Source of the DNA: Streptomyces sp. NBC_00440
Lineage (GTDB): Bacteria > Actinomycetota > Actinomycetes > Streptomycetales > Streptomycetaceae
Length of the DNA: 64,000 nt
Direction: 5' to 3'
Assembly: GCF_036014215.1 (NCBI RefSeq)
Contig: NZ_CP107921.1
Location: forward strand, 7,437,501 to 7,501,500
Within the stretch, counting starts at the first letter, position 1. Each line of letters opens with the position of its first letter. Below the pieces are notes generated by a model. That model did no database searches. It worked only from the letters and a program-made list of their open reading frames with translations, and had not been told where the DNA came from. The position numbers and the translations under genes are program-made. Shown in pieces: positions 35,464-51,868 of this stretch.

Positions 35464-36483
35464 TCACAGCATCCTGCGGCGCCTGCCCAGCCAGGTCTGG
35501 GCGATGACCACGGCCGCCAGGAAGGCGCCGCTGACCACCTGCTGGTACGCGGAGTCCAGCGAGCCGATCTGGTTGATGACGTTCTGGATGACCTTCAGCA
35601 GCAGCACACCGACGAGCGAGCCGCTGATGAAGCCGAATCCGCCGGTCAGCAGGGTGCCGCCGATGACGACGGCCGAGATCGCCTCCAGCTCCATGCCCGA
35701 GCCGAGGATGGTGACACCGGAGACCAGCCAGGCCGCGTTGAGCGCCCCCGCGAGCCCCGCGCAGACCCCGGAGAGCGCGTACACGGTGGTCTTCGTACGG
35801 GCGACGGGGGCGCCCATCAGCGCTGCCGCGTCCTCGTTGCCGCCGACCGCGTACACGTACTGGCCGAAGCGGGTGCGGCGCAGCACCACCGCTCCCAGCA
35901 CGAAGAGCGCCACCGTGATCCAGACGGGCACCCCGACGCCGAGCAGCTTGTTCTGGCCGAGACGGGCGAAGAACGACGTGTCGTCGACCAGATAGGTCGT
36001 CGCGCCCTCATGGGTGATCGCCAGCAGAATGCCGCGGGCGGCGAGCAGCGACGCGAGTGTCACGATGAACGGTGCCAGCCTGGCCCTCGCGATCAACAGG
36101 CCGTTGACCAGGCCGATCAGCCCGCAGACCGCCAACGGGAGGAGCAGGGCCACCACGGTCCCGTACCGCGAGCCCCAGGCGCCGAGCACGCCCCCCAGCG
36201 CGAAGAGCGAGCCCACCGACAGGTCGATTCCGCCCGTGATGATCACGAAGGTCATACCGAGGGCCACGACGGCGAGGAAGGCCGAGGAGACGGCCATGTT
36301 GCCGAGGTTGTCGGTGGTGAGGAAGGTGTCGAAGCTCAGCGAGGCAGCGATCACGGCGACGACGAGTGTCACCAGCGCGCCGTGCTGCTGGGCGAGTGCG
36401 CTGATCCGCTCCCCGCGGGTCGGGCCGTCCGGCCCGGCCCCTTCGGTCGGCCGGCCGGTCCCGATGGTCTGCACGGCGGTCAC
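35464..36483 (-). CDS. Sugar ABC permease, YjfF-like (RbsC family)
   Basis: A 339-residue CUT2 permease: GMTFVIITGGIDLSVGSLFAL is the RbsC signature, followed by LAPFIVTLASLLAARGI, RRTRFGQYVYAVGGNEDAAAL and AISAVVIGGTLLTGGFG. It starts with GTG overlapping the preceding permease stop by 4 bases. Last gene of the four-gene importer; the second-permease position matches E. coli YjfF. Confidence 0.92.
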   Translation of the reverse strand: MTAVQTIGTGRPTEGAGPDGPTRGERISALAQQHGALVTLVVAVIAASLSFDTFLTTDNLGNMAVSSAFLAVVALGMTFVIITGGIDLSVGSLFALGGVLGAWGSRYGTVVALLLPLAVCGLIGLVNGLLIARARLAPFIVTLASLLAARGILLAITHEGATTYLVDDTSFFARLGQNKLLGVGVPVWITVALFVLGAVVLRRTRFGQYVYAVGGNEDAAALMGAPVARTKTTVYALSGVCAGLAGALNAAWLVSGVTILGSGMELEAISAVVIGGTLLTGGFGFISGSLVGVLLLKVIQNVINQIGSLDSAYQQVVSGAFLAAVVIAQTWLGRRRRML

Positions 36484-37442
36484 CGCTTCCCCCGTTCCCG
36501 TGCCGCGTACACCGCGAGCACGATCACCACGGCCTGAGCGATCTGCGTCCAGGACGGCGGCAGATCGTGCTTGATGAGCGTGGCGGTGAGCAGCTGGATG
36601 AGGACGGCCCCCGCCACGGTGCCGCCGATCCTGATGCGGCCGCCGCTCAGCGGCGTACCGCCGACGACCACCGCGGTGATCGCGGAGAGTTCCATCAGAG
36701 TGCCGAGCGAGGTCGGGTCACTGGCCTGCAGGCGCGCCGACGCGAGGACACCGGCGACGGCGGCCAGCACCCCGGAACAGACATAGACCAGGATCAGCAC
36801 CCGCCGGACCGGAAGTCCCGCCAGCTGCGCGGCCGGCCGGCTGTCGCCGATGGCCAGCAGCTGCCTGCCGAACGTCGTACGTCGCACGGTGAACGCGACG
36901 ACCAGGGCGAGGGCTGCCGCGATCAGCACCAGATAGGGGATGCCGAGCATGTCCCCCGAGCCCAGCGACGCCATCCCGGGGTCGTGGATGTCCTTGAGCT
37001 GGGGGAGCAGGACCAGGGCGACCCCGCGTCCGGCGACCATCAGCGCCAGTGTCGCGACGATGGGCTGGACACCGATGAACGCGATCAGCGAGCCATTGGC
37101 CACCCCCACCACGATTCCGCCGATGACGGCCGTGATGAGCGCGATCCACACCCCGTAGCCGAGATAGAGCGAGACCAGTGAGGTCGAGAGGGCCATCACC
37201 GAGCCCACCGACAGGTCGACGCCCTCGCTGCCGATCGCCAGCGCCATCCCGAGCGCCACGATGAGGACCGGTGCGACCTGCACGGCCTGGGTACGGAAGT
37301 TCTCCGCGGACAGGAAGTGCGGAGTGAAGGCGATGTTGGCCACGATCAGCACGGCCACCCCGGCGTACACCCCGTACTCCTGGAGGAGCCGCAGCAGCCG
37401 GTCGCGGTCGGCCGAAGTGCGCCGGAGCGCCAGGTCAGTCAT
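36480..37442 (-). CDS. Sugar ABC permease, YtfT-like (RbsC family)
   Basis: A 320-residue CUT2 permease: ALGMALAIGSEGVDLSVGSVMAL (the usual TGGIDLS is GSEGVDLS here), VQPIVATLALMVAGRGVA, RRTTFGRQLLAIGDS and ITAVVVGGTPLSGGR. The ATG at 37442 overlaps the ATPase stop by 8 bases. Importers with two different permeases are the exception in CUT2; the ytfT-yjfF pair is the best-known case. Confidence 0.92.
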   Translation of the reverse strand: MTDLALRRTSADRDRLLRLLQEYGVYAGVAVLIVANIAFTPHFLSAENFRTQAVQVAPVLIVALGMALAIGSEGVDLSVGSVMALSTSLVSLYLGYGVWIALITAVIGGIVVGVANGSLIAFIGVQPIVATLALMVAGRGVALVLLPQLKDIHDPGMASLGSGDMLGIPYLVLIAAALALVVAFTVRRTTFGRQLLAIGDSRPAAQLAGLPVRRVLILVYVCSGVLAAVAGVLASARLQASDPTSLGTLMELSAITAVVVGGTPLSGGRIRIGGTVAGAVLIQLLTATLIKHDLPPSWTQIAQAVVIVLAVYAARERGKR

Positions 37443-38994
37443 CGTCCCCGCCCTTCGCCGCGATGGCCCGCAGCAACTGCTCCCCGGTGACGGCGTCACC
37501 CGACAGCTCCGCGACGACGGCGCCGTCCCGCAGGACGACCACCCGGTCGGAGCCCTCGATCAGCTCCTCCAGGTCCGAGGAGATCAGCAGCACGCCCAGT
37601 CCGTCCTCGGCGAGTTCGTCGATGAGTCTCTGGACCTCGGCCTTGGCACCGACGTCGATGCCCCGGGTCGGCTCGTCGAGGAGCAGCACTTTGGGCCGCA
37701 TGGCGAGCCAGCGGGCGAGCAGCACCTTCTGCTGGTTGCCGCCGGAGAGTTCGCCCACCTTCTGGTGCGGGCCCGCGGCCTTGATCCGCAGACGCGTCAT
37801 GAAGGTCTCCACGATGCTGTCGATACGTTTCTCGTCGACCAGGCCGAAGCGCGAGAGCCCCGGCAGCGCGGCGAGTGCGATGTTCTCCCGGACCGAGAGC
37901 CCCGGCACGATGCCCTCGGCCTTGCGGTCCTCCGGCAGCAGACTGATGCCCGCCCGGATGGCCGCGGGGGTTGATCCCGTACGGACGGCGCCACCCGCGA
38001 CGAGCACTCGCCCCGATTCGGGCGACAGCGCGCCGGCGATGGCCTTGGCGGTCTCGCTGCGGCCCGAGCCGAGCAGCCCGCCGAGCCCGACAACCTCGCC
38101 GGGCCGGATGTCGATCGAAACATCCTTCAGGACATGGCGGATCGTCAATTCCTCGGCTCGCAGGACGGGTTCGGTCTCGTCGGCGTGCCCGCCGGTGAAC
38201 TGGGTGAGGCCTTCGCTGCGCACCTCGCCCATCTCGCGCCCGAGCATCATGGAGACCAGCCGCAGCCGGCCGAGCTCGGCGATCGGTCCGGTGTGTACGA
38301 CTTCGCCGTCCCGCAGCACGGTCACGGTGTCGCAGACCTCGTACAGCTCCTCAAGGCGGTGGCTGACATAGATCACCGCGATCCCGCGCTCGCGCAGCAT
38401 TCGGATCACCCCGAACAGGGTCCGGACCTCCGCCGGTTCGAGTGAGGACGTCGGCTCGTCCATGATGACCACCCGCGCGTCGACCGAGACCGCACGGGCG
38501 AGTGCCACCATCTGCTGCGTGCCGACGCCGAGCGAACGCAACGGTCTGCGGACGTCGGTCCGTACCCCCAGCGAGCACAGTGCCTCGTCCGCCTCGCGGT
38601 GCATCCGGCGGAAGTCGATCAGGCCGATACGGTTGCGGGGCTCGCGGCCGAGGAAGAGGTTGCGGGCCACACTCAGCAGCGGGACCAGATTCACCTCCTG
38701 GTAGATCGTGGAGATCCCGGCGTGCTGTGCGGCGAGCGGGGTGGCGAACGACACCGGCTTCTGACGGTAGGTCAACTCGCCCTCGTCGGGGCGGTAGACA
38801 CCGGTCAGCACCTTGATGAGGGTGGACTTCCCGGCGCCGTTCTCACCGATCAGCGCATGGACCTCGCCGGGCCGCACCGCGAAGTCCACCCCGTCGAGCG
38901 CACGGGCGCCCGGGAACGTCTTGGTCAGACCGGTGACGGACAGCACCGGCCGTTCCGGCGCCTCCCTGTTCACCGGCTGTTCCGGCGCCTCCAC
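37435..38994 (-). CDS. Sugar ABC ATP-binding protein, two NBDs (YtfR-like)
   Basis: A 519-residue protein with two ABC domains. NBD1: GENGAGKSTLIKVLTG (Walker A), LGVGTQQMVALARAVSVDARVVIMDEPTSSLE (signature and Walker B). NBD2: GLLGSGRSETAKAIAG (degenerate Walker A), ELSGGNQQKVLLARWL and LLLDEPTRGIDVGAKAEV. This is the RbsA/MglA/YtfR pattern. GTG start 2 bases after the binding-protein stop. Its first 17 residues hold a duplicated motif (EAPEQPVN/REAPERPV). Confidence 0.94.
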   Translation of the reverse strand: MEAPEQPVNREAPERPVLSVTGLTKTFPGARALDGVDFAVRPGEVHALIGENGAGKSTLIKVLTGVYRPDEGELTYRQKPVSFATPLAAQHAGISTIYQEVNLVPLLSVARNLFLGREPRNRIGLIDFRRMHREADEALCSLGVRTDVRRPLRSLGVGTQQMVALARAVSVDARVVIMDEPTSSLEPAEVRTLFGVIRMLRERGIAVIYVSHRLEELYEVCDTVTVLRDGEVVHTGPIAELGRLRLVSMMLGREMGEVRSEGLTQFTGGHADETEPVLRAEELTIRHVLKDVSIDIRPGEVVGLGGLLGSGRSETAKAIAGALSPESGRVLVAGGAVRTGSTPAAIRAGISLLPEDRKAEGIVPGLSVRENIALAALPGLSRFGLVDEKRIDSIVETFMTRLRIKAAGPHQKVGELSGGNQQKVLLARWLAMRPKVLLLDEPTRGIDVGAKAEVQRLIDELAEDGLGVLLISSDLEELIEGSDRVVVLRDGAVVAELSGDAVTGEQLLRAIAAKGGDDD

Positions 38995-38996
38995 GC

Positions 38997-40097
38997 TCAG
39001 AACGCCTTGCCGATGTCGGACTTGGCGTTGTCCTTGCTGTACTCGCTGTCCTGGATGATGATGTTCTGCGGGACCTTCTGGCCCTTGGTGAAGTTGTCGA
39101 GCGTCTCGAAGGCGAGCGGTCCGAAGCGCGGGTTGGACTCCACATCTCCGCTCATCCAGCCGTCCACGATCTGCTGGACGCCGTTGCGCGTACCGTCCAC
39201 GGTCACGATCTTCACCGCACCGGCCTTCTTGCCCGCGCCCTTGAGCGCGTTGACGGCGCCGAGGCCCATCTCGTCGTTCTCCGCGTAGATCCCGGCGATG
39301 TCCGGATTCGACTGGATGAGCTGCTCGGTGACCTGCTGGCCCTTCTCGCGGACGAACTCACCGGTCTGCTCGAAGACCACCTTGAGCCCGGGGGCCTTCG
39401 CCTTCAGCTCGTCCTTGAAGCCCTTGGTGCGTTCGGTCGTGACGTTGTTGCCCGCGGACCCGAGCAGAATGGCGAGTTTGCCCTTGCCGCCGGTCGACGC
39501 GATCATCTGGTCGGCCGCCCGCTTGCCCTGCTGGACGAAGTCGGAGCCGATGAAGCTGACGTAGTCCTTGCACGGGGTTGCGTTGATCTTGCGGTCGACG
39601 GTGACGATCGGGATGTGCTTCGCCCGCGCCGTGCGGAGCACAGGTCCCCAGCCGTCCGAGTTCAGCGGGGCGATGACCAGCAGGTCCGCGCCCTTGGCCA
39701 TCAGGTCCTGGACATCGCTGATCTGCTTGGAGAACTGCGACTGCGCGTTGGCCGTGAGCAGTTTCAGGCCGCGCTTGTGGGCCTCGGCCTTCATGGAGGC
39801 GGTCTCGGCGATCCGGAAGGGGTTGGCCTCCTTCTCGGACTGGGAGAAACCGATGGTGGCGCTCTTGATGTCGAGCTTCTTGCCGCCGAACTGACCGATG
39901 GTGCAGCTCTTGGCGTCCCCGGCGGACGGGGTGGCGACGACCTGGCCCGAATCGCCCTTGCCGGACGAGGCGGAGGTGTCCTTCGCGCCGTCGTCCTCCG
40001 ACTTGGCGCAGCCGGAGGCGAGCGCGAGGCTCGCGGCGAGACCGGTGGCGAGTAGGGCTTTGCTGGTGGTACGTCGAAGGAGCATGGTCGGATTCAT
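38997..40097 (-). CDS. Sugar-binding lipoprotein, YtfQ-like (RbsB family)
   Basis: A 366-residue binding protein. The lipobox is ALAS-GC (Cys30) followed by a Ser/Gly/Asp linker. TIGFSQSEKEANPFRIAETASMKAEA, ANAQSQFSKQISDVQDLMAKGADLLVIAPLNSDGW, IVTVDRKI and GIYAENDEMGLGAVNALKGAG (in pieces) closely follow the YtfQ pattern; SQSEKEANPFR in particular recalls E. coli YtfQ, the galactofuranose binder. ATG at 40097 with GGGGA upstream. First gene of the importer operon. Confidence 0.93.
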   Translation of the reverse strand: MNPTMLLRRTTSKALLATGLAASLALASGCAKSEDDGAKDTSASSGKGDSGQVVATPSAGDAKSCTIGQFGGKKLDIKSATIGFSQSEKEANPFRIAETASMKAEAHKRGLKLLTANAQSQFSKQISDVQDLMAKGADLLVIAPLNSDGWGPVLRTARAKHIPIVTVDRKINATPCKDYVSFIGSDFVQQGKRAADQMIASTGGKGKLAILLGSAGNNVTTERTKGFKDELKAKAPGLKVVFEQTGEFVREKGQQVTEQLIQSNPDIAGIYAENDEMGLGAVNALKGAGKKAGAVKIVTVDGTRNGVQQIVDGWMSGDVESNPRFGPLAFETLDNFTKGQKVPQNIIIQDSEYSKDNAKSDIGKAF

Positions 40098-40180
40098 GGC
40101 GTCCCCAGATGTGGCGCGGGCCCGTGGCAACGAGGCACGGGAGGCGGGCTCGTACGAGTCGACTCAGCGTTCCGGGCCAC

Positions 40181-40209
40181 TTTTTACAACGTTAGAAGAG
40201 TCCTGTAAA
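40181..40209 (-). promoter_or_regulatory. Promoter of the importer operon with LacI site in the spacer
   Basis: On the minus strand TTTACA (40209-40204), a 17-base spacer and TAAAAA (40186-40181). The spacer contains the operator-like CTAACGTTG. About 85 bases before the binding-protein start. Confidence 0.55.
40186..40195. promoter_or_regulatory. LacI-type operator, importer operon
   Basis: ACAACGTTAG shares the core CAACGTT with the sites before the GH2 and GH92 genes; one half is intact and the other has A for G. It lies within the predicted promoter. Confidence 0.65.
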
Positions 40210-40276
40210 CCCTTCGCGTACCTGACAACCCGATATCGGGCCCGGCGCCGGAGCCGATACCGGGCCTGATGCCGCG

Positions 40277-41374
40277 TCACCGGCGGCCCAGGGTGCTCTC
40301 CCGCTCCACCAGCCGGAATTCCGCGGCGAGTTCACGTCCGGCCGGCGCGTCGGCCACCTGCCCCGGGTGCCGGCCGGAGCCGCTGCCGGATCCCGTTCCG
40401 GGGCCCCTTTCGGAGTCCTGGAGACCGTCGATGACCGACTCGACCGCGAGCCGGGCGATGGACTGCTTGTCCGGCGAGACGGTGGTGAGGGTGACCGCGC
40501 CGAACCTGCCCTCCGCGATGTCGTCGAACCCCACCACCGCCACGTCCCAGGGCACCCGCAGTCCCCGTTCCGAGAGCACCCGCATCGCACCGACCGCGAC
40601 CAGGTCGTTATAGGCGAAGACCGCGTCCGGGCGCCGGCCCGAGTCCAGCAGCCAGGCCATCGCCTGCGCCCCGTCATCCCGGTCCCAGCCGCTGGTGGGA
40701 GCCACCAGAGTGTCCGGCGCCGGCAGACCGGCGGCGGTCAGCTCCTCGCGCCAGCCACGAAGCCGCAGCTGGGCGGGCCTGTTGATCCGGTCGGTGCGCG
40801 CGCCGAGGTACGCGATGCGGGTGCGGCCGAGTCCGATCAGATGCCGCACCGCGCTGCGCGACGCCGCGACGTTGTCGATCGCGATGTGGTCGTACGGCAG
40901 GTCGTACTCGCGCTCGCCGAGCAGCACCAGCGGGGCGTCGTGGATCCGGCTGCGCAGGTCGTCGGCCTCCAGCTCGATGGGGGAGAGGATCAGCCCGTCG
41001 ATGACCCGGCCCCGGAAGCCCTGGCTGACCAGGATCTCCTGTTCGCGTTCGCCCCGGGTGTGGTCGAGCAGCACCGTGTAGTCGTGCTCGGCCGCCGCGT
41101 CGATGACGGCCCCCGCCAGCTCGGCGAAGTACGGGTTGCCCAGTTCGGGCACCGCGAGCGCGAGGATTCCCGTACGGCCTTTCCGCAGGTGGCGCGCGGT
41201 GAGGTTCGGTACGTAGCCGAGTTCGTCGATCGCCGCCTGCACTCTGGCCCGCATGGCCGGAGTGACGTGCTGGTAGTTGTTCACCACGTTCGAGACGGTC
41301 TTGATCGAGACGCCCGCGAGCCCGGCGACGTCCTTGAGGCTTACGCCCACTGAGTCTCCCCTCCGAGTGGTCAT
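40277..41374 (-). CDS. LacI family transcriptional regulator
   Basis: A 365-residue LacI repressor: VSLKDVAGLAGVSIKTVSNVVNNYQHVTPAMRARV (HTH plus hinge; given in order), YVPNLTARHLRKGRTG hinge, then the periplasmic-binding-protein fold (LGNPYFAELAGAVIDAA, GLILSPIE, FAYNDLVAVGAMRVL, VVGFDDIAEGRF). A Gly/Ser/Pro-rich insert of about 25 residues interrupts the last segment. It lies between the importer operon and the GH2 gene and is the evident regulator of the CAACGTTG sites. The first residue is ambiguous (ATG at 41374). Confidence 0.93.
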   Translation of the reverse strand: MTTRRGDSVGVSLKDVAGLAGVSIKTVSNVVNNYQHVTPAMRARVQAAIDELGYVPNLTARHLRKGRTGILALAVPELGNPYFAELAGAVIDAAAEHDYTVLLDHTRGEREQEILVSQGFRGRVIDGLILSPIELEADDLRSRIHDAPLVLLGEREYDLPYDHIAIDNVAASRSAVRHLIGLGRTRIAYLGARTDRINRPAQLRLRGWREELTAAGLPAPDTLVAPTSGWDRDDGAQAMAWLLDSGRRPDAVFAYNDLVAVGAMRVLSERGLRVPWDVAVVGFDDIAEGRFGAVTLTTVSPDKQSIARLAVESVIDGLQDSERGPGTGSGSGSGRHPGQVADAPAGRELAAEFRLVERESTLGRR

Positions 41375-41424
41375 GCCGCTGGACAGCAGGCAGGAGTCGT
41401 GCTGTCATGCCAACTGCCGTTCCT

Positions 41425-41437
41425 TCCAACGTTGTAC
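41425..41437. promoter_or_regulatory. LacI-type operator, lacI-GH2 intergenic region
   Basis: CCAACGTTGTAC contains the perfect palindrome CAACGTTG (41427-41434). It lies 50 bases before the GH2 start and 53 bases before the lacI start, so it could control both. Confidence 0.75.
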
Positions 41438-41483
41438 AGACTGTCGCAACGAGCCGCCACCCTTCCTCACCAAAGGAGGATCC

Positions 41484-44093
41484 GTGCGCATCCGAAGAAA
41501 TCTGGCCCTACTCCTCGCCGCCGTCACCGGCTTCGCGGGGCTCTCCGCCCTGCCGGCCGCGTCCGCCACGCCCGCACACCCGAGTCCCGCCGTCACAGCC
41601 CACGGGCTGAAGGGGGAGTACTACACCCAATCGGCCCCGGGCGCCTTCGACTTCGGGCAGCTCAAGGCCACCGGGTTCGACCCGGATATCGACTTCCCCA
41701 CCCTGGAGTCACGGCTCCAGTCCGCCACCGGACAGTCGGACAACGACAGCGTCCGCTGGACCGGGAAGATCGTCCCGGAGAAGTCCGGCGCCCACACGTT
41801 CTCGATGATCGGCGACAACGGTTTCCGGCTCTGGATCGACGGAAAACCGGTCATCGACCACTGGGTGGACGACTGGGAGAAGGAACAGACCTCCCAGCCG
41901 GTCGAGTTGACGGCGGGCAGGGCCTACGACATCAAGATCGAGTACTTCGAGCACGAGGGCGGGTCCGACCTCCATCTGAAGTGGACCCCGCCGGGCGGTA
42001 CCAAGACGCCGGTCCCCCAGTCCGCGTTCCGGCTGCCCGACGGTTACGACTACGACGGTGCCATCGCCGCCACCGTCCAGAAGTCCGGCCGCACCCTCAA
42101 GCTGGACTTCGCGCAGAAGCTCGCGCCCCTGCCCGCCGGACTGGCGGGCCATCTCGATGCCGTCATCGGCGGCGCGACCTGGCCGCTGGGCGCCGTCAAG
42201 GCGGACCCGGCCGACCCGCGCAGCCTGATCGTGGCACTCAAGAAGCCCGTGGTGGGCAAGAAGGGCGGCGGCGCCAACGGCCTCGCGGACATCCGTTACG
42301 ACGGCAAGGGCGCGCTGAAGGGCCGGGACGGCAAGACGGTCGGAGCTTTCTGGTCGAGCGGCGGCAACGACTCCGAGTACGAACTGCGCACCAAGTGGGC
42401 GGACGACGTCAGCCCGTCCAACGCGCTCCCCGAGTACCCGAGGCCCCAGCTCACCCGGGACGACTGGCAGAACCTCAACGGCAGTTGGCAGTTCGCCGCC
42501 GCCAAGGCGGGCGAGAAGCCGCCGGTCGGCAAGAAGCTGGCGGAGAAGATCCTCGTGCCGTACCCGGTGGAGTCGCAGCTCTCCGGGATCGAGCGGCACG
42601 AGGACCGGATGTGGTACCGGCGTACGTTCACCGTCCCCAAGGGCTGGAAGGTCGGCTCGGGCAAGCGGCTCCAGCTCAACTTCGGGGCGGTCGACTGGCA
42701 GGCCGAGGTGTACGTCAACGGCACCAAGGTCACCGAACACAAGGGTGGCTACGACAAGTTCAGCGCGGACATCACCGACGCGCTGAAGCCGGGCCGCACC
42801 CAGGAAGTGATCGTCGGGGTCTATGACCCGACCGACGCCAAGGGCGGCGAGAATCCGCCGATGGGCAAGCAGCGCCTGGACCCGAGCGGCATCTGGTACA
42901 CCCCGTCGTCCGGCATCTGGCAGACCGTGTGGATGGAGCCGGTCGCGGCCGACCACGCGGACTCCCTCAAGCTCACCCCGGACATCACGGCGCAGCAGGT
43001 CGCCGTCGACGTGCGGGGCGTACGCGACGGGGTACCCGTCACGGCCACCGCGTACGACGGGAAGCGCAAGGTGGGCACCGCCACCGGCCGTACCGGTGCG
43101 GCACTGAACGTACCGGTGCCCGAGCCGCACCTCTGGTCGGCGGACGATCCGCATCTCTACCGGCTCAGGGTCACCGTCGGCTCCGACCGGGTCGGCAGCT
43201 ACTTCGGGATGCGCTCCATCGCCGTCGAGAAGGTGAACGGCACCCCGCGCACCGTACTCAACGGCAAGCCCGTCTTCATGATGGCCACCCTCGACCAGGG
43301 CTTCTGGCCGGACGGCCTGTACACCGCGCCCACCGACCAGGCCCTCGCGTACGACCTCAAGATGCACAAGGCGATGGGCTTCAACGCGGTCCGCAAGCAC
43401 ATCAAGGTCGAACCCGACCGCTGGTTCTACTGGGCGGACAAGCTCGGTCTGATGGTCTGGCAGGACATGCCGGCCATGGAGGCGGGCACCAACCCGTCCC
43501 CGGCCGCGCGCACCGAGTACGAGCACGAGATGAAGCAGATGATCGACCAGCACAGCAGCCATCCGTCGGTCGTCATGTGGGTGACCTTCAACGAGGGCTG
43601 GGGCCAGTACGACATGGCGCGCATCGCCGACCAGGCCAAGGCATGGGACCCGACGCGGCTGGTCAACAGCATGTCGGGCATCAACCTGGGAACGGACGGC
43701 GGCACCGGCGACATCATCGACGAGCACGGCTACCCGAGCCCGGCCCTGCCGGCGCCCGACGGGAGACGCGCGCTGGTCAGCGGTGAGTACGGCGGACTCG
43801 GACTGGCCGTCCCCGGGCACGCCTGGGCGGTGCAGCAGTCGTACGTCGCGGTCGACCCGGCCACGTACACCGACGACTACCTCGCCAAGCTGGACGAGGT
43901 GCGCAAGCTCGCCTGCCAGGGCAGCAACGGCGCCGTCTACACCCAGATCTCCGATGTGGAGGGCGAGTTGAACGGGCTGATGACCTACGACCGGAAGATC
44001 GTCAAGCCCGATGTGAAGCGGGTCAGGGCCGCCCAGCAGGCGCTGATCCACGACGCGTCGCAGGCGGTTCCGGCAGGGTGCCCGGCCTCCTGA
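41484..44093 (+). CDS. Secreted PA14-GH2 glycoside hydrolase (candidate beta-galactofuranosidase or beta-galactosidase)
   Basis: An 869-residue secreted enzyme. Signal peptide RRNLALLLAAVTGFAGLSAL to ASA. Residues about 38-180 form a PA14 domain (GLKGEYYTQ, FSMIGDNGFRLWIDGKPVIDHW, LHLKWTPPG). Then the GH2 sugar-binding domain (NLNGSWQFA, MWYRRTFTVP, VYVNGTKVTEHKGGY), Ig-like domain, and TIM barrel. The acid/base is Glu704 in FNEGWGQ and the probable nucleophile Glu768 in GEYGG. GH2 includes beta-galactosidases, glucuronidases, mannosidases and, as I recall, a Streptomyces beta-D-galactofuranosidase; the YtfQRT-type importer next door makes the last attractive. AAAGGAGGA fixes the GTG start. 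Confidence 0.9.
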   Translation: MRIRRNLALLLAAVTGFAGLSALPAASATPAHPSPAVTAHGLKGEYYTQSAPGAFDFGQLKATGFDPDIDFPTLESRLQSATGQSDNDSVRWTGKIVPEKSGAHTFSMIGDNGFRLWIDGKPVIDHWVDDWEKEQTSQPVELTAGRAYDIKIEYFEHEGGSDLHLKWTPPGGTKTPVPQSAFRLPDGYDYDGAIAATVQKSGRTLKLDFAQKLAPLPAGLAGHLDAVIGGATWPLGAVKADPADPRSLIVALKKPVVGKKGGGANGLADIRYDGKGALKGRDGKTVGAFWSSGGNDSEYELRTKWADDVSPSNALPEYPRPQLTRDDWQNLNGSWQFAAAKAGEKPPVGKKLAEKILVPYPVESQLSGIERHEDRMWYRRTFTVPKGWKVGSGKRLQLNFGAVDWQAEVYVNGTKVTEHKGGYDKFSADITDALKPGRTQEVIVGVYDPTDAKGGENPPMGKQRLDPSGIWYTPSSGIWQTVWMEPVAADHADSLKLTPDITAQQVAVDVRGVRDGVPVTATAYDGKRKVGTATGRTGAALNVPVPEPHLWSADDPHLYRLRVTVGSDRVGSYFGMRSIAVEKVNGTPRTVLNGKPVFMMATLDQGFWPDGLYTAPTDQALAYDLKMHKAMGFNAVRKHIKVEPDRWFYWADKLGLMVWQDMPAMEAGTNPSPAARTEYEHEMKQMIDQHSSHPSVVMWVTFNEGWGQYDMARIADQAKAWDPTRLVNSMSGINLGTDGGTGDIIDEHGYPSPALPAPDGRRALVSGEYGGLGLAVPGHAWAVQQSYVAVDPATYTDDYLAKLDEVRKLACQGSNGAVYTQISDVEGELNGLMTYDRKIVKPDVKRVRAAQQALIHDASQAVPAGCPAS

Positions 44094-44097
44094 CCGG

Positions 44098-44137
44098 TCC
44101 GGGTGCACCGGACCGCGCACGGCCCGGTGCACCCGGA
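44098..44137 (+). terminator. Hairpin terminator after GH2 gene
   Basis: A perfect 14-bp stem (TCCGGGTGCACCGG / CCGGTGCACCCGGA) with a 12-base loop begins 5 bases after the stop codon. Confidence 0.8.
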
Positions 44138-44172
44138 GCGTTGCGGTCGGAACTCTTGCGCGGTCGGAACTC

Positions 44173-44201
44173 TTGACGCGAGCGCGACAGGAATCAACAA
44201 T
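44173..44201 (+). promoter_or_regulatory. Promoter upstream of the GH92 gene
   Basis: TTGACG (44173-44178), a 17-base spacer and AACAAT (44196-44201). The LacI palindrome at 44213 falls about 12 bases downstream, near the transcription start. Confidence 0.6.
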
Positions 44202-44212
44202 GATCGCGTTCT

Positions 44213-44224
44213 GACAACGTTGTC
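44213..44224. promoter_or_regulatory. LacI-type operator, GH92 unit
   Basis: GACAACGTTGTC is a perfect 12-bp palindrome containing the shared CAACGTTG core, located just downstream of the predicted -10 box. Confidence 0.8.
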
Positions 44225-44242
44225 CAAAGGAGGCGGAGCGGC

Positions 44243-44428
44243 TTGTCCCATCACCCGTACGAGCTGAGCCCACGCCGCTTCGCCTACCGGCCGGCGGGTG
44301 AACTCTCCCGCCACGGCCAGGACAGCGCGCCGACCGCGGACGGGTCCGCCCGTTATGTTGCCCTTGCCCTTGCCGTTCCCGGCCGGCACTACGACGACGC
44401 GCCCCTCGTCCCGCTCGGCGCCTCCTGA
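44243..44428 (+). CDS. Possible small protein upstream of the GH92 gene
   Basis: A 61-residue frame opening with TTG (LSHHPYELSPRRFAYRPAGE). AAAGGAGG at 44226-44233 is an almost ideal RBS 9 bases upstream and has no other start to serve; third codon positions are about 80% G/C. It lies 18 bases after the LacI operator and 83 bases before gh92. No signal peptide or family recognised. It could be a translated leader. Confidence 0.35.
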   Translation: MSHHPYELSPRRFAYRPAGELSRHGQDSAPTADGSARYVALALAVPGRHYDDAPLVPLGAS

Positions 44429-44511
44429 CCCCGGCGCCCGCCATCCCCGAAAGCCCCCCCCACAGCCCCGTACACACAGCCCGCCCTTCTTCCCCGTGGA
44501 GGTCTCCACCC

Positions 44512-46854
44512 ATGTACTGGACACAACGGCTGCGCGGCGCAGGGACGGCCGTGGCCGCCGCCGCGCTGATCGGCGGGGCCCTCGCCGCGCCGACGGCCGA
44601 GGCGGCGGGAGCTCCTCACGGCGGCCAACTGACCGATCTGGTCAACCCGTTCATCGGCACGGAGAACGAGGGGAACACCTACCCGGGTGCCGCGGTGCCC
44701 TTCGGAATGGTGCAGCTCTCGCCGGACACCGGGCACAACACCGGCTACGACCACGCCCAGAACGAGATCCGCGGCTTCTCCAGCGTGCACATCTCGGGGG
44801 TGGGCTGCGGCCTCGGCGGCGATCTGCCGACCCTGCCGACCACCGGTGACGTCACCGAGACCGACTACGCCAAGTACGCGGCGAAGTTCAGCCACGACAC
44901 CGAGAAGGCGAGCCCCGGCTACTACAAGGTCGGCCTCGACTCAGGCATCACCGCCGAACTCACCGCCACCAAGCGCACCGGGGTGCAGCGCTACACCTTC
45001 CCCGCCACCGACAAGGCCAACGTCCTGCTGAACGCGGGCCAGTCGCTGCACAAGACGGTCTCCACCTCCGTCGAAGTGCTCGACTCCCGCACCATCCGCA
45101 CCACCATCACAGGCAGCGGTTTCTGCCAGGACACCAAGCCGTACACCCTCTACACGGTCACGCACTTCGACCGCCCCTTCACCACATCGGGCACCTGGAA
45201 GGACGGCACCGTCACTCAGGGCTCACGGAAGTCCACCGGGACCGGCGGCAACGGCGCCTGGGTGCGCTTCGACACGTCCAAGGACCGTACGGTCGAGGCC
45301 ACCACGGCCATCAGCTACGTCGACGCGACAGGCGCGGCCCGCAATCTGCGCGCCGAGGGCGGCAAGAGCTTCGACCGGGTCCACCGCGCCGCGCAGGCGA
45401 GCTGGGAGGACCGGCTCGACGACGTCCAGGCGCAGGGCGGCAGCGACACCCAGCGCCGGACCTTCTACTCCTCGCTCTACCGGTCGTTCCTCGCGCCCAA
45501 CATCGGCAGCGACACCGACGGCCGCTACACGGGCTGGGACCAGAAGATCCACCGCGCCAAGGGGTTCGACTACTACCAGAACTGGTCGTTGTGGGACACC
45601 TACCGCACCCAGACCCAGCTGCTCTCCCTCCTCGCGCCGCGCGAGGAACGGAACATGGCGATCTCCGTACTGAAGATCGACGAGCAGAGCGGCTGGCTGC
45701 CCAAGTGGGGCTACGGCACGGTCGAGACGAACATCATGACCGGTGACCCGGTCACCCCCTTCCTCACCAACGCCTACCGGCAGGGGCTGCTCAAGGGGTA
45801 CGAGGAGCAGGCCTACCGCGCGCTCAAGAAGAACGCCGACGGGACCCCGCCCGCGGACTCCCCGGCGGTCGGCCGTGAGGCCAACGTGCAGTATCTGAAG
45901 GACGGTTTCGCGCCGTACATCAAGGACCGTCCCCATGTGAAGCCCGGCGACTCGGACTTCGACCACGGTGCGTCGGCCACCCTGGAGTACGCGCTGTCCG
46001 ACGCCATGCTCGGTCAGATGGCGGGCGACCTCGGCCACCAGGCGGACGCCAAGCGCTACGCGGCCCGCGCCCAGAGCTACCGCAACATCTTCGACCCCTC
46101 GACCGGCTTCTTCCGTGCCCGCGACGAGAACGGCAACTTCACCGGTCCGGCCGACCCGGCGCAGGGCGAGGGCTTCCACGAGGGCACGGCCTGGCAGTAC
46201 CAGTGGATGGTCCCGCAGGACCTGTCCGGCATGGTCGGTCTGATCGGCGGCAAGGACGCGGCCAACAAGCGCCTCGACTCCTTCTTCGCCTACGACCAGC
46301 TCCTCGCCGACCCGGCGAAGACGGCCACCGACGTGTGGGTCAACGGCCCGTACGACTACTACAACGCGGACAAGTACAACCCGCAGAACGAGCCCGACCT
46401 GATCGCCCCGTACACCTATCTCTCCACCGGCCAGCCGTGGAAGACGACCGATGTGGTGCACGCCGCGCTGACCCTCTTCACCGACACCCCGACCGGTATG
46501 ACGGGCAACGACGACCTGGGCACCATGTCCGCCTGGAACGTCCTGTCCTCCATCGGTGTCTTCCCGGTCCAGCCGGGCACCGACACCTGGGGCCTGTCGA
46601 CGCCCGCCTTCCAGCGCGTCGATCTGAAGCTGGACCGCCGCTACTACCCGCACGGCGGCTTCACGGTGAAGGCGCCGGGAGCCTCGGACACCGACCGGTA
46701 CATCCAGTCGGCGGCCGTGGACGGCACGGCCCACGCCAAGACGTATCTCACCACCGACGAGATCCGCTCGGGCCGCACCCTCTCCTTCAACGTCGGAGCC
46801 AAGCCGTCCGACTGGGGTACGGACGCCTCCGCCGCCCCGCCCGCCGTTCGCTGA
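44512..46854 (+). CDS. Secreted GH92 alpha-mannosidase
   Basis: A 780-residue secreted enzyme. A Sec signal ends at about residue 32 (AEA-A). The GH92 blocks are clear: LTDLVNPFIGTENEGNTYPGA, GFSSVHISGVGCGLGGDLP, YQNWSLWDTYRTQTQLLSLL, EGTAWQYQWMVPQD (general acid Glu557) and GNDDLGTMSAWNVLSSIGVFPV (Asp667/Asp668, general-base region). GH92 enzymes are calcium-dependent exo-alpha-mannosidases (1,2-, 1,3-, 1,4- or 1,6-). Its likely targets are yeast or fungal mannans or N-glycans. The ATG follows GGAGG. It is the third unit carrying the LacI operator. Confidence 0.94.
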   Translation: MYWTQRLRGAGTAVAAAALIGGALAAPTAEAAGAPHGGQLTDLVNPFIGTENEGNTYPGAAVPFGMVQLSPDTGHNTGYDHAQNEIRGFSSVHISGVGCGLGGDLPTLPTTGDVTETDYAKYAAKFSHDTEKASPGYYKVGLDSGITAELTATKRTGVQRYTFPATDKANVLLNAGQSLHKTVSTSVEVLDSRTIRTTITGSGFCQDTKPYTLYTVTHFDRPFTTSGTWKDGTVTQGSRKSTGTGGNGAWVRFDTSKDRTVEATTAISYVDATGAARNLRAEGGKSFDRVHRAAQASWEDRLDDVQAQGGSDTQRRTFYSSLYRSFLAPNIGSDTDGRYTGWDQKIHRAKGFDYYQNWSLWDTYRTQTQLLSLLAPREERNMAISVLKIDEQSGWLPKWGYGTVETNIMTGDPVTPFLTNAYRQGLLKGYEEQAYRALKKNADGTPPADSPAVGREANVQYLKDGFAPYIKDRPHVKPGDSDFDHGASATLEYALSDAMLGQMAGDLGHQADAKRYAARAQSYRNIFDPSTGFFRARDENGNFTGPADPAQGEGFHEGTAWQYQWMVPQDLSGMVGLIGGKDAANKRLDSFFAYDQLLADPAKTATDVWVNGPYDYYNADKYNPQNEPDLIAPYTYLSTGQPWKTTDVVHAALTLFTDTPTGMTGNDDLGTMSAWNVLSSIGVFPVQPGTDTWGLSTPAFQRVDLKLDRRYYPHGGFTVKAPGASDTDRYIQSAAVDGTAHAKTYLTTDEIRSGRTLSFNVGAKPSDWGTDASAAPPAVR

Positions 46855-48124
46855 CCGGCTGATCAGGACCGCCCGCTCCCGTACCGCCCGCTCCGGTGCT
46901 GGGGGGCGGGCGGTCCCCGTCGCGTGCGGGCAGGACGCCCACCACAAGACCGGCCACGGCTGCGACCACCCCGGTGCCCACCACCGCGGGCCAGCCGCCG
47001 CCCGCCCACGCCAGCGAACCCACCAGTGAGCCGAGTGCGATTCCCAGGAAACGGAAGGTGAAGTAGAGGGTGTTGAGACGGCTGTGGATACGCGGGTCCA
47101 GGGTGAACAGCACGGTCTGGCTGACGGCCTGACCGCCCCAGACCCCCACATCGAGCACGATCACCCCGGCCACCAGCCACCAGAACCGGGTGCCGCCAGG
47201 CAGCAGGACCAGCCACCCCGCGACGACCAGCCCGATCAGCGCCGCCAGCGCGCCGCGCCGGCCGATCCGGTCGGCCAGCCGCCCGGCGAACGGCGAGAGC
47301 AGAGCACTGGCCGCCGCGACCAGACCGAAAAGCCCGATGCCGGTCGGACCGACGCGGTAGTGCTGCTCCAGCAGAAACGTCAGCGTGGTCCAGAAGGCGC
47401 CGAACGCGATCCCGACCAGCGCCCCCGACACGGTGATCCGGCGGACCAGCGGGTGGGCCAGGAACAGCCGCGGCAGTGAGGACAGGGTGGCCCGGTACGA
47501 GGCTGCGCCGGTGGCGGCCGGGACGTACGGCAGGGCCCCGCGCAGCACGAGCACCAGCAGCAGGGTCAGCAGGCAGGAGCATCCGAACACGGCGCGCCAG
47601 CCCGCCAGTTCGGCCAGGGAACCCGAGTAGGCGCGGGACGCGAGCACGCCCATCAGCAGGCCGCCCTGCACGGTGCCGACGATCCGTCCGGCCCCCGGCC
47701 CGGTCCGTCCGTCGCCCGCCAGGGCCACGGCGAGCGGAGTGACCAACTGCGGGACGGGCGAGAGCAGACCGACGGCGAACCCGGCGACGACGAGCCAGCC
47801 CACCGAAGGGGCCAGCGCGCACCCCGCGAGCGCGACGGCCGACGCCGTACCGAGTCCGAGGATCAGCCGTCGCCGGTCATGGCTGTCCCCGGCCGGCACG
47901 AGCAGCAGGATGCCTGCCGCATAGCCGAGCTGGGTGGCCGTCGGAACGGCCGCGAGGGCATCGGGCCCGGCGCGGAGCGAGGCGGCCGCCGCTCCCATGA
48001 GCGGCTGGCTGAGATAGACATTGGCAGCCGTGACAGCGCTGGTGGCGGTGAGCAGCAGGGTGAGCCGCCGGGTCCCGCCGCCGCTCGCACGGCTCTGGCC
48101 TGCGGAAACGTTGGATTCGATCAC
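46787..48124 (-). CDS. MFS transporter
   Basis: A 445-residue, 12-helix MFS protein: LTATSAVTAANVYLSQPLMGAAA (helix 1), GYAAGILLLVPAGDSHDRRRLI (motif A-like) and GRLADRIGRRGALAAL in the second half. It resembles small-molecule exporters often paired with AraC regulators. The GTG at 48124 is a reasonable start; a TTG at 48148 is also open. Its 3' end overlaps the GH92 gene by 68 bases. Divergent from the AraC gene with about 50 bases between, so probably controlled by it. Confidence 0.85.
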   Translation of the reverse strand: MIESNVSAGQSRASGGGTRRLTLLLTATSAVTAANVYLSQPLMGAAAASLRAGPDALAAVPTATQLGYAAGILLLVPAGDSHDRRRLILGLGTASAVALAGCALAPSVGWLVVAGFAVGLLSPVPQLVTPLAVALAGDGRTGPGAGRIVGTVQGGLLMGVLASRAYSGSLAELAGWRAVFGCSCLLTLLLVLVLRGALPYVPAATGAASYRATLSSLPRLFLAHPLVRRITVSGALVGIAFGAFWTTLTFLLEQHYRVGPTGIGLFGLVAAASALLSPFAGRLADRIGRRGALAALIGLVVAGWLVLLPGGTRFWWLVAGVIVLDVGVWGGQAVSQTVLFTLDPRIHSRLNTLYFTFRFLGIALGSLVGSLAWAGGGWPAVVGTGVVAAVAGLVVGVLPARDGDRPPPSTGAGGTGAGGPDQPVSERRAGRRRRPYPSRTAWLRR

Positions 48125-48176
48125 ATAGGTCGACGTTAGGGCGGGCAAACAGTGGCAGACTTTCTCTGCTACGCCA

Positions 48177-48971
48177 ATGTCTATCGAGAATGCGCCAATG
48201 TACGGGAAGAGCGAGCAGCGCGACGACTACCAGTCGGTCCCCAGACCGCTGGCGGCGATGGCCAGGGACCTGCCCGACGGCCACCACATCCCCCCGCACC
48301 ACCACCGGCGGGCCCAGCTGATCTATGGCACGACCGGTGCCATCACCGTGGTCACCGGCCACGGGGCCTGGGTCGTCCCGGCCACTCGCGGGGTCTGGGT
48401 GCCGGCCGGCCTCACTCACGAGATGAGCTGCGCCGGGGCGGTCGCCATGCGCACCCTGTACGTCGAGCCGCAGCCGGACCTGCCGCGGGAGCCGACCGTC
48501 GTCTCGGTCTCGCCGCTGCTGCGCGAACTGATCGAGGAGGCCGCGCGGCTGCCCGTGGAGTACGACCCGGAGAGCCGCGACGGCAAGGTCATGGAGCTGC
48601 TCCTCCTCCAGCTGACCCCGCACCCGGTCCCCGCACTGCATCTGCCCGCCCCCGCGGACGACGCTCTGTCGTCGCTCTGCGCTGCGGTCGTACGGGAGCC
48701 CGGAGCGGCCTGGGGGACGAAGGAGGCCGCGGCCTTCGCGCATCTGAGCCCGCGGACCCTGCAGCGCAGATTCCCGGCCGCAACCGGAATGAGCCTGGCC
48801 CGCTGGGTTCAGCAGGCCAGGCTCATTCACGCGGTGACACTTCTCGCCAGGGGAGTGCCGGTCACATCCGTGTCCGGCGCACTGGGCTATGCGACACCGA
48901 GCGCGTTCACCGCGATGTTCCGCCGCGCGCTCGGTACCAGTCCCACCGGGTACTTCACCCCGGGGCGCTGA
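48177..48971 (+). CDS. AraC family transcriptional regulator with cupin domain
   Basis: A 264-residue protein. The N-terminal cupin is HHIPPHHHRRAQLIYGTTGAITVVT and WVVPATRGVWVPAGLTHEM (in pieces). The C-terminal double helix-turn-helix is EAAAFAHLSPRTLQRRFPAATGMSLARWVQQARL and VTSVSGALGYATPSAFTAMFRRALGTSP. This arrangement and the divergent MFS gene match NimR-type local regulators of an efflux pump. ATG at 48177; another in-frame ATG at 48198 is possible. Confidence 0.9.
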   Translation: MSIENAPMYGKSEQRDDYQSVPRPLAAMARDLPDGHHIPPHHHRRAQLIYGTTGAITVVTGHGAWVVPATRGVWVPAGLTHEMSCAGAVAMRTLYVEPQPDLPREPTVVSVSPLLRELIEEAARLPVEYDPESRDGKVMELLLLQLTPHPVPALHLPAPADDALSSLCAAVVREPGAAWGTKEAAAFAHLSPRTLQRRFPAATGMSLARWVQQARLIHAVTLLARGVPVTSVSGALGYATPSAFTAMFRRALGTSPTGYFTPGR

Positions 48972-51831: not shown

Positions 51832-51860
51832 TTGACAGGCACTCGTCATGCTCCAATCAT
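51832..51860 (+). promoter_or_regulatory. Promoter of the fucosidase gene (leaderless transcript likely)
   Basis: TTGACA (51832-51837), a 17-base spacer and AATCAT (51855-51860). Transcription should start about 7-9 bases later, at or next to the ATG at 51869. Confidence 0.6.
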
Positions 51861-51868
51861 CGGACCTT

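Follow-up and report, generated by a model that had tools for sequence, protein, structure and literature searches.

A Streptomyces locus at which two predicted LacI-family regulons, for furanosides and for mannosides, probably meet

Do a sugar importer and two secreted glycosidases that lie side by side in a streptomycete, each preceded by a similar palindrome, belong to one regulon or to more? We addressed this question for a locus at positions 35464 to 46854 of a 64,000-nucleotide stretch of DNA from Streptomyces sp. NBC_00440 (the window; C1:7437501-7501500 of the 8.68-Mb genome, G000). The locus encodes two permeases, a double ATPase, a lipoprotein binding protein, a LacI-family regulator (LacI-1), a divergently oriented PA14-GH2 enzyme, and a GH92 enzyme. 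The Pfam domains (BPD_transp_2 twice, a double ABC_tran, Peripla_BP_4, LacI, PA14 with GH2, and GH92N with GH92) agree with a preliminary description of this DNA, which had named two secreted enzymes, a PA14-GH2 glycosidase and a GH92 enzyme. What was observed directly are the genes and their homologies, the operator classes and how far these are conserved, and which regulators occur together with them. Based on these observations, we consider it probable that two LacI-family regulons meet here: a furanoside module of LacI-1 that holds the GH2 gene and the importer, and a mannoside regulon of a second regulator, LacI-2, that includes the GH92 gene.

The preliminary description had placed one palindrome core before all three units. 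Palindromes centered on AACGTT are indeed present upstream of the importer (40188), in the gap between lacI and the GH2 gene (41428), and upstream of the GH92 gene (44216). However, the core CAACGTTG has two copies in the window, and 12 of 100 shuffled sequences had at least two; AACGTT has five copies, and at least five were reached by 20 of 100 shuffles. Genome-wide, CAACGTTG occurred at 30 places versus 15 for the reversed control. The importer site reads TTCTAACGTTGTAAA on the strand of the gene and so differs from CAACGTTG. Since the core alone is within chance in the window, the case for regulation rests on the flanks and on relatives of the locus. By their flanks, the three palindromes form two classes, type A (the importer and lacI/GH2 sites) and type B (the GH92 site), and the three units do not share one operator class. 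We therefore rejected the shared core as grounds for a single regulon, because it is at chance level in the window and the classes separate genome-wide.

We compared the locus with the best 80 of 577 LacI-1 relatives, all named Streptomyces, Actinacidiphila, Kitasatospora, or Wenjunlia, and with a sample of 21 genomes, 13 of them from the same genus. A lacI gene divergent from a GH2 gene (≥60% identity) was found in 47 of the 80 loci, and a type A site lay between the two genes in all 47. The importer followed lacI in order in 54 of the 80 loci, and a type A-like site, mostly CTTYCAACGATGTAAA, was found at most 250 nucleotides upstream in 54/54. Both arrangements occurred together in 39 of the 80, the remaining loci having other arrangements or lying on short contigs. 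The 47/47 and 54/54 figures are regular-expression counts, while the background figure comes from scoring window tiles with a LacI-1 matrix; by this matrix, the importer site scored 27.9, the GH2 site 26.5, and the GH92 site 14.4, against a 95th percentile of 4.8. Allowing at most one mismatch, KTNYAACGTTRTAMA was present at two places in the genome of the window, the importer site and the lacI/GH2 site. Across the genome sample, the presence of TNYAACGWTRTAMA coincided exactly with that of a LacI-1 relative (E <= 1e-70): it was found in the 10 genomes that have such a relative and was absent from the other 11, giving 22 rows versus 3 for the reversed control. If the genomes were independent, the odds of this agreement would be 1 in 352,716, and 1 in 715 inside the genus (4 of 13 genomes), but the true figures are weaker because the genomes are related.

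Most distinct type A places (14 of 21) have a LacI-1 relative no more than about 6 kb away. The remaining seven include four before PA14-GH2 genes and one before a GH127-family gene, so that sites identified by motif alone lead, for the most part, to the same enzyme type; the other two are at a GH65N/CBM6 protein and between lectin-domain and sigma-factor genes. A promoter-like pair with an operator was found by regular expression at the importer in the window and in 38 of 65 upstream regions. This operator fills the space between TTTACA and TAAAAA and overlaps them, which is the placement expected for repression. The importer and GH2 units thus very probably share the operator of the local, predicted LacI-1 repressor. 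A paralogous system is present elsewhere in the same genome (L260:2643-9153; G000 C1:4548.6-4555.2 kb). Its LacI protein is 46% identical to LacI-1, and the divergent GH2 gene is 40% identical to the GH2 of the locus described here; a CUT1-type importer accompanies them, and the palindrome is another one, CTTTGCATCGATGCAAAG-like.

The type B motif TGACAACGTTGTC has eight exact copies in the genome, and their neighbors are five GH92 genes, a ROK kinase/LacI-2 pair, a GxGYxYP protein, and another GH2 gene. Sites with one mismatch precede a further GH92 gene, probably a GH76 gene, and an importer gene; others among those examined are inside genes or beside unrelated genes. Judged by position, a site was at or near the 5′ end of six of the eight GH92 genes in the genome. 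At three of the sites (C1:8070202, 6632535, and 6585715), uncertainty over the gene start means that the site may overlap the first codons. In the same-genus GH92 set (21 of 23 rows, the omitted two being pieces of one frame in G002), type B sites with at most one mismatch were near the start of 18 of 21 genes, 15 of them exact, versus 2.2% of 448 control windows. The preliminary description had assigned GH92 to the LacI regulon of the importer and GH2, a claim that this genome-wide type B class at GH92 genes, with its own LacI-2, argues against.

The LacI-2 gene lies at C1:582 kb (C1:581960; L128:3938-6075), divergent from a ROK-family kinase gene with TGACAACGTTGTC between them. LacI-2 relatives (78 to 86% identity) were found in all 12 same-genus genomes besides its own, and the LacI-2 promoter carried exact GACAACGTTGTC in 12 of the 13. 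The exception, G012, had neither a GH92 match nor an exact type B site. Outside the genus, seven genomes had a GH92 match, and in each of them a LacI-2 relative (49 to 64%) lay within about 1.2 kb of such a match; this adjacent copy ranked as the top LacI-2 match of its genome in G016 and G020 only. The tested GH92 genes of the other five genomes lacked type B sites, so the operator differs there. Where a GH92 gene lies near the GH2 gene (about 0.2 to 2.7 kb; 13 loci), the exact type B site was present in 13/13, and all 13 of these GH92 upstream regions had a TTGACG promoter-like pair ahead of the operator. The predicted recognition helices, GVSIKTVSNVVN in LacI-1 and GVGLKTVSRVVN in LacI-2, have a Lys in common and differ in nearby residues, in keeping with operators that have the same core but distinct flanks. 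These results make LacI-2 a candidate master regulator of a genome-wide GH92/GH76 mannoside regulon.

We infer DNA binding, repression, ligands, and substrate as follows. LacI-1 would repress itself, the PA14-GH2 gene, and the GafABCD-type importer by acting at type A operators (about TTYYAACGWTRTAMA), one in the lacI/GH2 gap and one within the importer promoter. Basal GH2 enzyme would free terminal beta-D-galactofuranose (Galf), and Galf or a product would enter by the importer, bind LacI-1, and lift repression. LacI-2 would repress GH92 at TGACAACGTTGTC, directly downstream of the GH92 promoter, and may also control most other GH92 genes of the genome, probably with GH76 and importer genes. 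The probable inducers are Galf or a derivative for LacI-1 and mannose or a mannoside for LacI-2. Adjacency of the genes might let the cell strip Galf and mannose off one glycan. Removal of these sugars side by side, together with the action on galactomannan of the JHA26-type enzyme described below, makes fungal galactomannan a reasonable substrate, and it is our best guess.

The GH2 protein is, by sequence, a close relative of characterized Streptomyces beta-D-galactofuranosidases. Its best solved relative is beta-D-galactofuranosidase 2 (9j6n, 601 bits), followed by 7sf2 (491) and 7xyr (284). According to passages of PMC12243196, 9J6M belongs to GH2_18 and 7XYR to GH2_19, the two subfamilies to which furanosidase activities are given there; the window protein scored 599 to 601 bits to the GH2_18 structure 9J6M versus 284 bits to the GH2_19 structure 7XYR. 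It is 51.7% identical over 582 columns to the galactofuranosidase chain of strain JHA19 (ORF1110). Sections of PMC4560423 describe the mutation of 18 acidic residues in ORF1110. We could map 17 of these, and all 17 are conserved in the window GH2, D423 and E464 included; mutation of the 18th, unmapped residue, D336, left full activity according to the same sections (PMC4560423). Models for beta-galactosidase and glucuronidase in NCBIfam gave at most 125 bits, far under their cut-offs, against 601 bits for the galactofuranosidase, and we rejected these activities. The preliminary description had stated that a Streptomyces GH2 beta-D-galactofuranosidase was already known, and this is borne out by JHA26 ORF0643, a PA14-GH2 galactofuranosidase described in 2017 that acts on Aspergillus fumigatus galactomannan and for which the PA14 domain matters in this action (PMC5391426).

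The GH92 protein has GH92N and GH92 domains with the catalytic-site motifs FxEGxxW and GNDDxGxxSAW, and its closest solved enzyme is BT3130 (6f8z). Parts of PMC5930347 describe the BT3130 clade as alpha-1,3 or mixed, with BT3965 as the exception. The loop aligned to His584-Glu585 of BT3990, an alpha-1,2 enzyme, reads DVWVNGPYDYYN and does not contain this pair, and an alpha-1,2 linkage is therefore not supported. The operator is about 290 nucleotides from the GH92 start in the window versus about 30 to 50 in most relatives, and a 63-codon open frame with GGAGG ahead of it (44243-44431, plus strand) sits between the two.

The four importer proteins gave YtfQ, YtfR, YtfT, and YjfF as best NCBIfam models in gene order, which upholds the order and the two-permease design given in the preliminary description, although all four are far below the equivalog cut-offs (193/510, 573/850, 171/535, and 229/363 bits). 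The best PDB matches of the binding protein are YtfQ/GafA proteins, with 34.7 to 37.5% identity to GafA of E. coli, Mycobacterium, and Shewanella. In the sections consulted of PMC10191376, the binding residues are identical in those three proteins, a Phe and a Trp hold the ring, and an Asp/Arg pair is discussed. The pocket of the window protein retains the Phe, Arg, and Asp and has a Phe with a one-residue insertion in place of the Trp. The segment SQSEKEANPFR had been taken to be a conserved part of YtfQ. We discarded it as a YtfQ hallmark because E. coli GafA/YtfQ reads SQVGSESG-WR; the signature GFSQSEKEANPFR is present in 65 of the 80 LacI-1 loci and so marks the clade of this binding protein.

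Which furanose the module serves can be narrowed from these likenesses. Passages of PMC10191376 describe GafA proteins that bind L-arabinofuranose (L-Araf), either in addition to D-Galf or in its place, and this range places the ligand between D-Galf and L-Araf. It is rather unlikely that the module serves L-Araf from plant glycans, with an arabinofuranosidase as GH2 and L-Araf as the imported sugar. Besides the range of GafA, this alternative can draw on the GH2 groups of 9J6M and 7XYR, which contain both activities according to parts of PMC12243196, and on genes of GH127, a family named for beta-L-arabinofuranosidase, at type A loci of relatives. The window locus, in contrast, has no GH127 gene. 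The PA14-type enzyme of JHA26 is reported to be Galf specific (PMC5391426), and excerpts of PMC4560423 and PMC7278926 report the same of the PA14-type and JHA19 enzymes. Moreover, no arabinose catabolic family was seen in the part of the neighbor clusters of at least five loci that was scanned with Pfam. D-Galf is the likelier ligand. An aldose 1-epimerase gene accompanies some more distant LacI-1 loci (L049:11084-12148 and 10 other loci), as might be expected if a furanose or unusual anomer were imported.

GH127-family genes were found in 15 of the 80 loci (L004:4715-7111 and 14 others) and also at L270 and L268. In several loci, they directly follow GH2 in the same orientation or are preceded by a type A site of their own. 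A Cys-Cys motif is present in 13 of the 15 genes, the other two being cut by the end of the locus; GH127 enzymes use such cysteines. The L004 protein matched GH127 structures weakly (72 bits), and a PDB search with the L268 protein gave no match. Alpha-D-Galf shares the ring configuration of beta-L-Araf. It is conceivable, if doubtful, that the GH127-family enzymes under type A sites represent a type of galactofuranosidase not yet described, perhaps one acting on alpha-D-Galf, within a dedicated furanose pathway. In this pathway, which we put forward as speculative, actinomycetes would scavenge furanoses with a secreted galactofuranosidase and an importer with a remodeled (Phe for Trp) pocket that capture Galf before it becomes pyranose and with a furanose-sensing LacI, wired separately beside the genome-wide alpha-mannan regulon.

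We consider it unlikely that LacI-1 binds all three palindromes by reading mainly the core CAACGTTG. The common core, the above-background matrix score of the GH92 site, the Lys in both recognition helices, and the position of GH92 beside GH2 in 13 of 47 loci are consistent with such a regulator, yet type B flanks are retained at the GH92 site in 13/13 loci and type B precedes LacI-2 in 12 of 13 genomes. In addition, 8 of 9 same-genus genomes that lack a LacI-1 relative have the exact type B motif, and in the six of these genomes with GH92, type B was at 10 of 11 GH92 genes (control, 4.3% of 188). That the AACGTT palindromes are unrelated to regulation is almost certainly wrong: core counts in the window are inside the shuffle range, but the sites are kept at the same places in 47/47, 54/54, and 13/13 loci, and reversed-pattern controls over the 21 genomes gave no rows for type B and, for type A, 3 rows where the true pattern gave 22.

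Several observations weigh against control of the furanoside module by LacI-1 and of GH92 by LacI-2. Relatedness of the genomes weakens the counts of co-occurrence. Two of the eight GH92 genes of the genome have no type B site at their start, and in other genera (19 of 23 GH92 rows taken), type B was at only 5 of 19 (control, 0.8% of 664). Four of the nine same-genus genomes without LacI-1 differ from the window in further ways too. The LacI-1 matrix score of 14.4 at the GH92 site, above the background of 4.8, would permit cross-binding. The predicted binding protein lacks the conserved Trp of known GafA proteins, and GH127-family genes at LacI-1/type A loci elsewhere keep L-Araf a plausible ligand.

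The features of the locus are listed in the table. For permease 1, the PF02653 and YtfT matches were computed on 36480-37439, and the ATG at 37442 was read from the sequence. A scan for intrinsic terminators was at chance level (2 found versus a shuffle mean of 1.8). Near the locus are an alpha-L-fucosidase (PF01120) gene (51848-54256, plus strand), a further secreted-glycan candidate, an AraC-type regulator gene (48177-48971), and the gene of an MFS protein (46787-48148).

Table. Coordinates of predicted genes and sites at the locus (window positions)
Feature	Position	Strand	Basis
Importer permease 2 (YjfF-like)	35464..36483	-	PF02653; best NCBIfam model YjfF, 229 bits vs cut-off 363
Importer permease 1 (YtfT-like)	36480..37442	-	PF02653; best NCBIfam model YtfT, 171 bits vs cut-off 535
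Importer double ATPase (YtfR-like)	37435..38994	-	PF00005 twice; best NCBIfam model YtfR, 573/850 bits
Lipoprotein sugar-binding protein (YtfQ/GafA-like, Phe replaces Trp)	38997..40097	-	PDB matches; lipobox-like LASGC
Importer promoter-like pair TTTACA-17-TAAAAA, operator inside	40181..40209	-	Regular expression
Putative type A operator of importer, TTCTAACGTTGTAAA	40183..40197	-	Genome scan and conservation in relatives
LacI-1, predicted furanoside-module repressor	40277..41374	-	PF00356 and Peripla_BP_3; 80 relatives
Putative type A operator between lacI and GH2, TTCCAACGTTGTACA	41424..41438	+	Genome scan and conservation in relatives
Secreted PA14-GH2 beta-D-galactofuranosidase relative (GH2_18-like), 869 amino acids	41484..44093	+	
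GH92 promoter-like pair TTGACG-17-AACAAT	44173..44201	+	1 found vs shuffle mean 0.2
Putative type B operator of GH92, TGACAACGTTGTC	44212..44224	+	Exact-match genome scan; 13/13 loci
Secreted GH92 alpha-mannosidase, predicted type B regulon member	44512..46854	+	

The enzyme type, the importer type, and the LacI fold are already known. Among the papers listed in searches of open-licence literature, outside which most subscription journals lie, we found no LacI/importer/galactofuranosidase locus and no such wiring by two regulators. The same searches yielded no TGACAACGTTGTC regulon, operator classes, or LacI-2 mannoside regulon, and the 12-mer matches concerned Streptococcus and E. coli. With this analysis, the known PA14 galactofuranosidases can be assigned a predicted importer, regulator, and operator, and the use of fungal Galf by bacteria becomes directly testable. 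The analysis also predicts a genome-wide LacI-2/ROK mannoside regulon over most GH92 genes of the genus sample, and it illustrates how two regulons can be mistaken for one when their palindromes have a core in common. Should the importer prove furanose selective, one purified protein would reveal whether soil bacteria import Galf as the furanose.

Each part of the locus has a known counterpart. The GH2 enzyme resembles JHA26 ORF0643, with which it was compared by length and domain plan, in its N-terminal PA14, its GH2 domains, and its 869 amino acids, the length that parts of PMC7278926 give for ORF0643. It also resembles the AbfB-type ORF1110 of JHA19 in the identity and acidic residues given above. 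The importer shares gene order, two permeases, best models, and the pocket Phe, Arg, and Asp with GafABCD (YtfQRT-YjfF) of E. coli, Mycobacterium smegmatis, and Shewanella but differs in its scores under all four NCBIfam cut-offs, in the replacement of Trp by Phe with an insertion, and in having a LacI operator of its own. The GH92 enzyme shares both domains and both motifs with Bacteroides thetaiotaomicron GH92 of the BT3130 clade, whereas it is encoded by an actinomycete gene with a LacI-type operator and has no His-Glu pair like that of BT3990.

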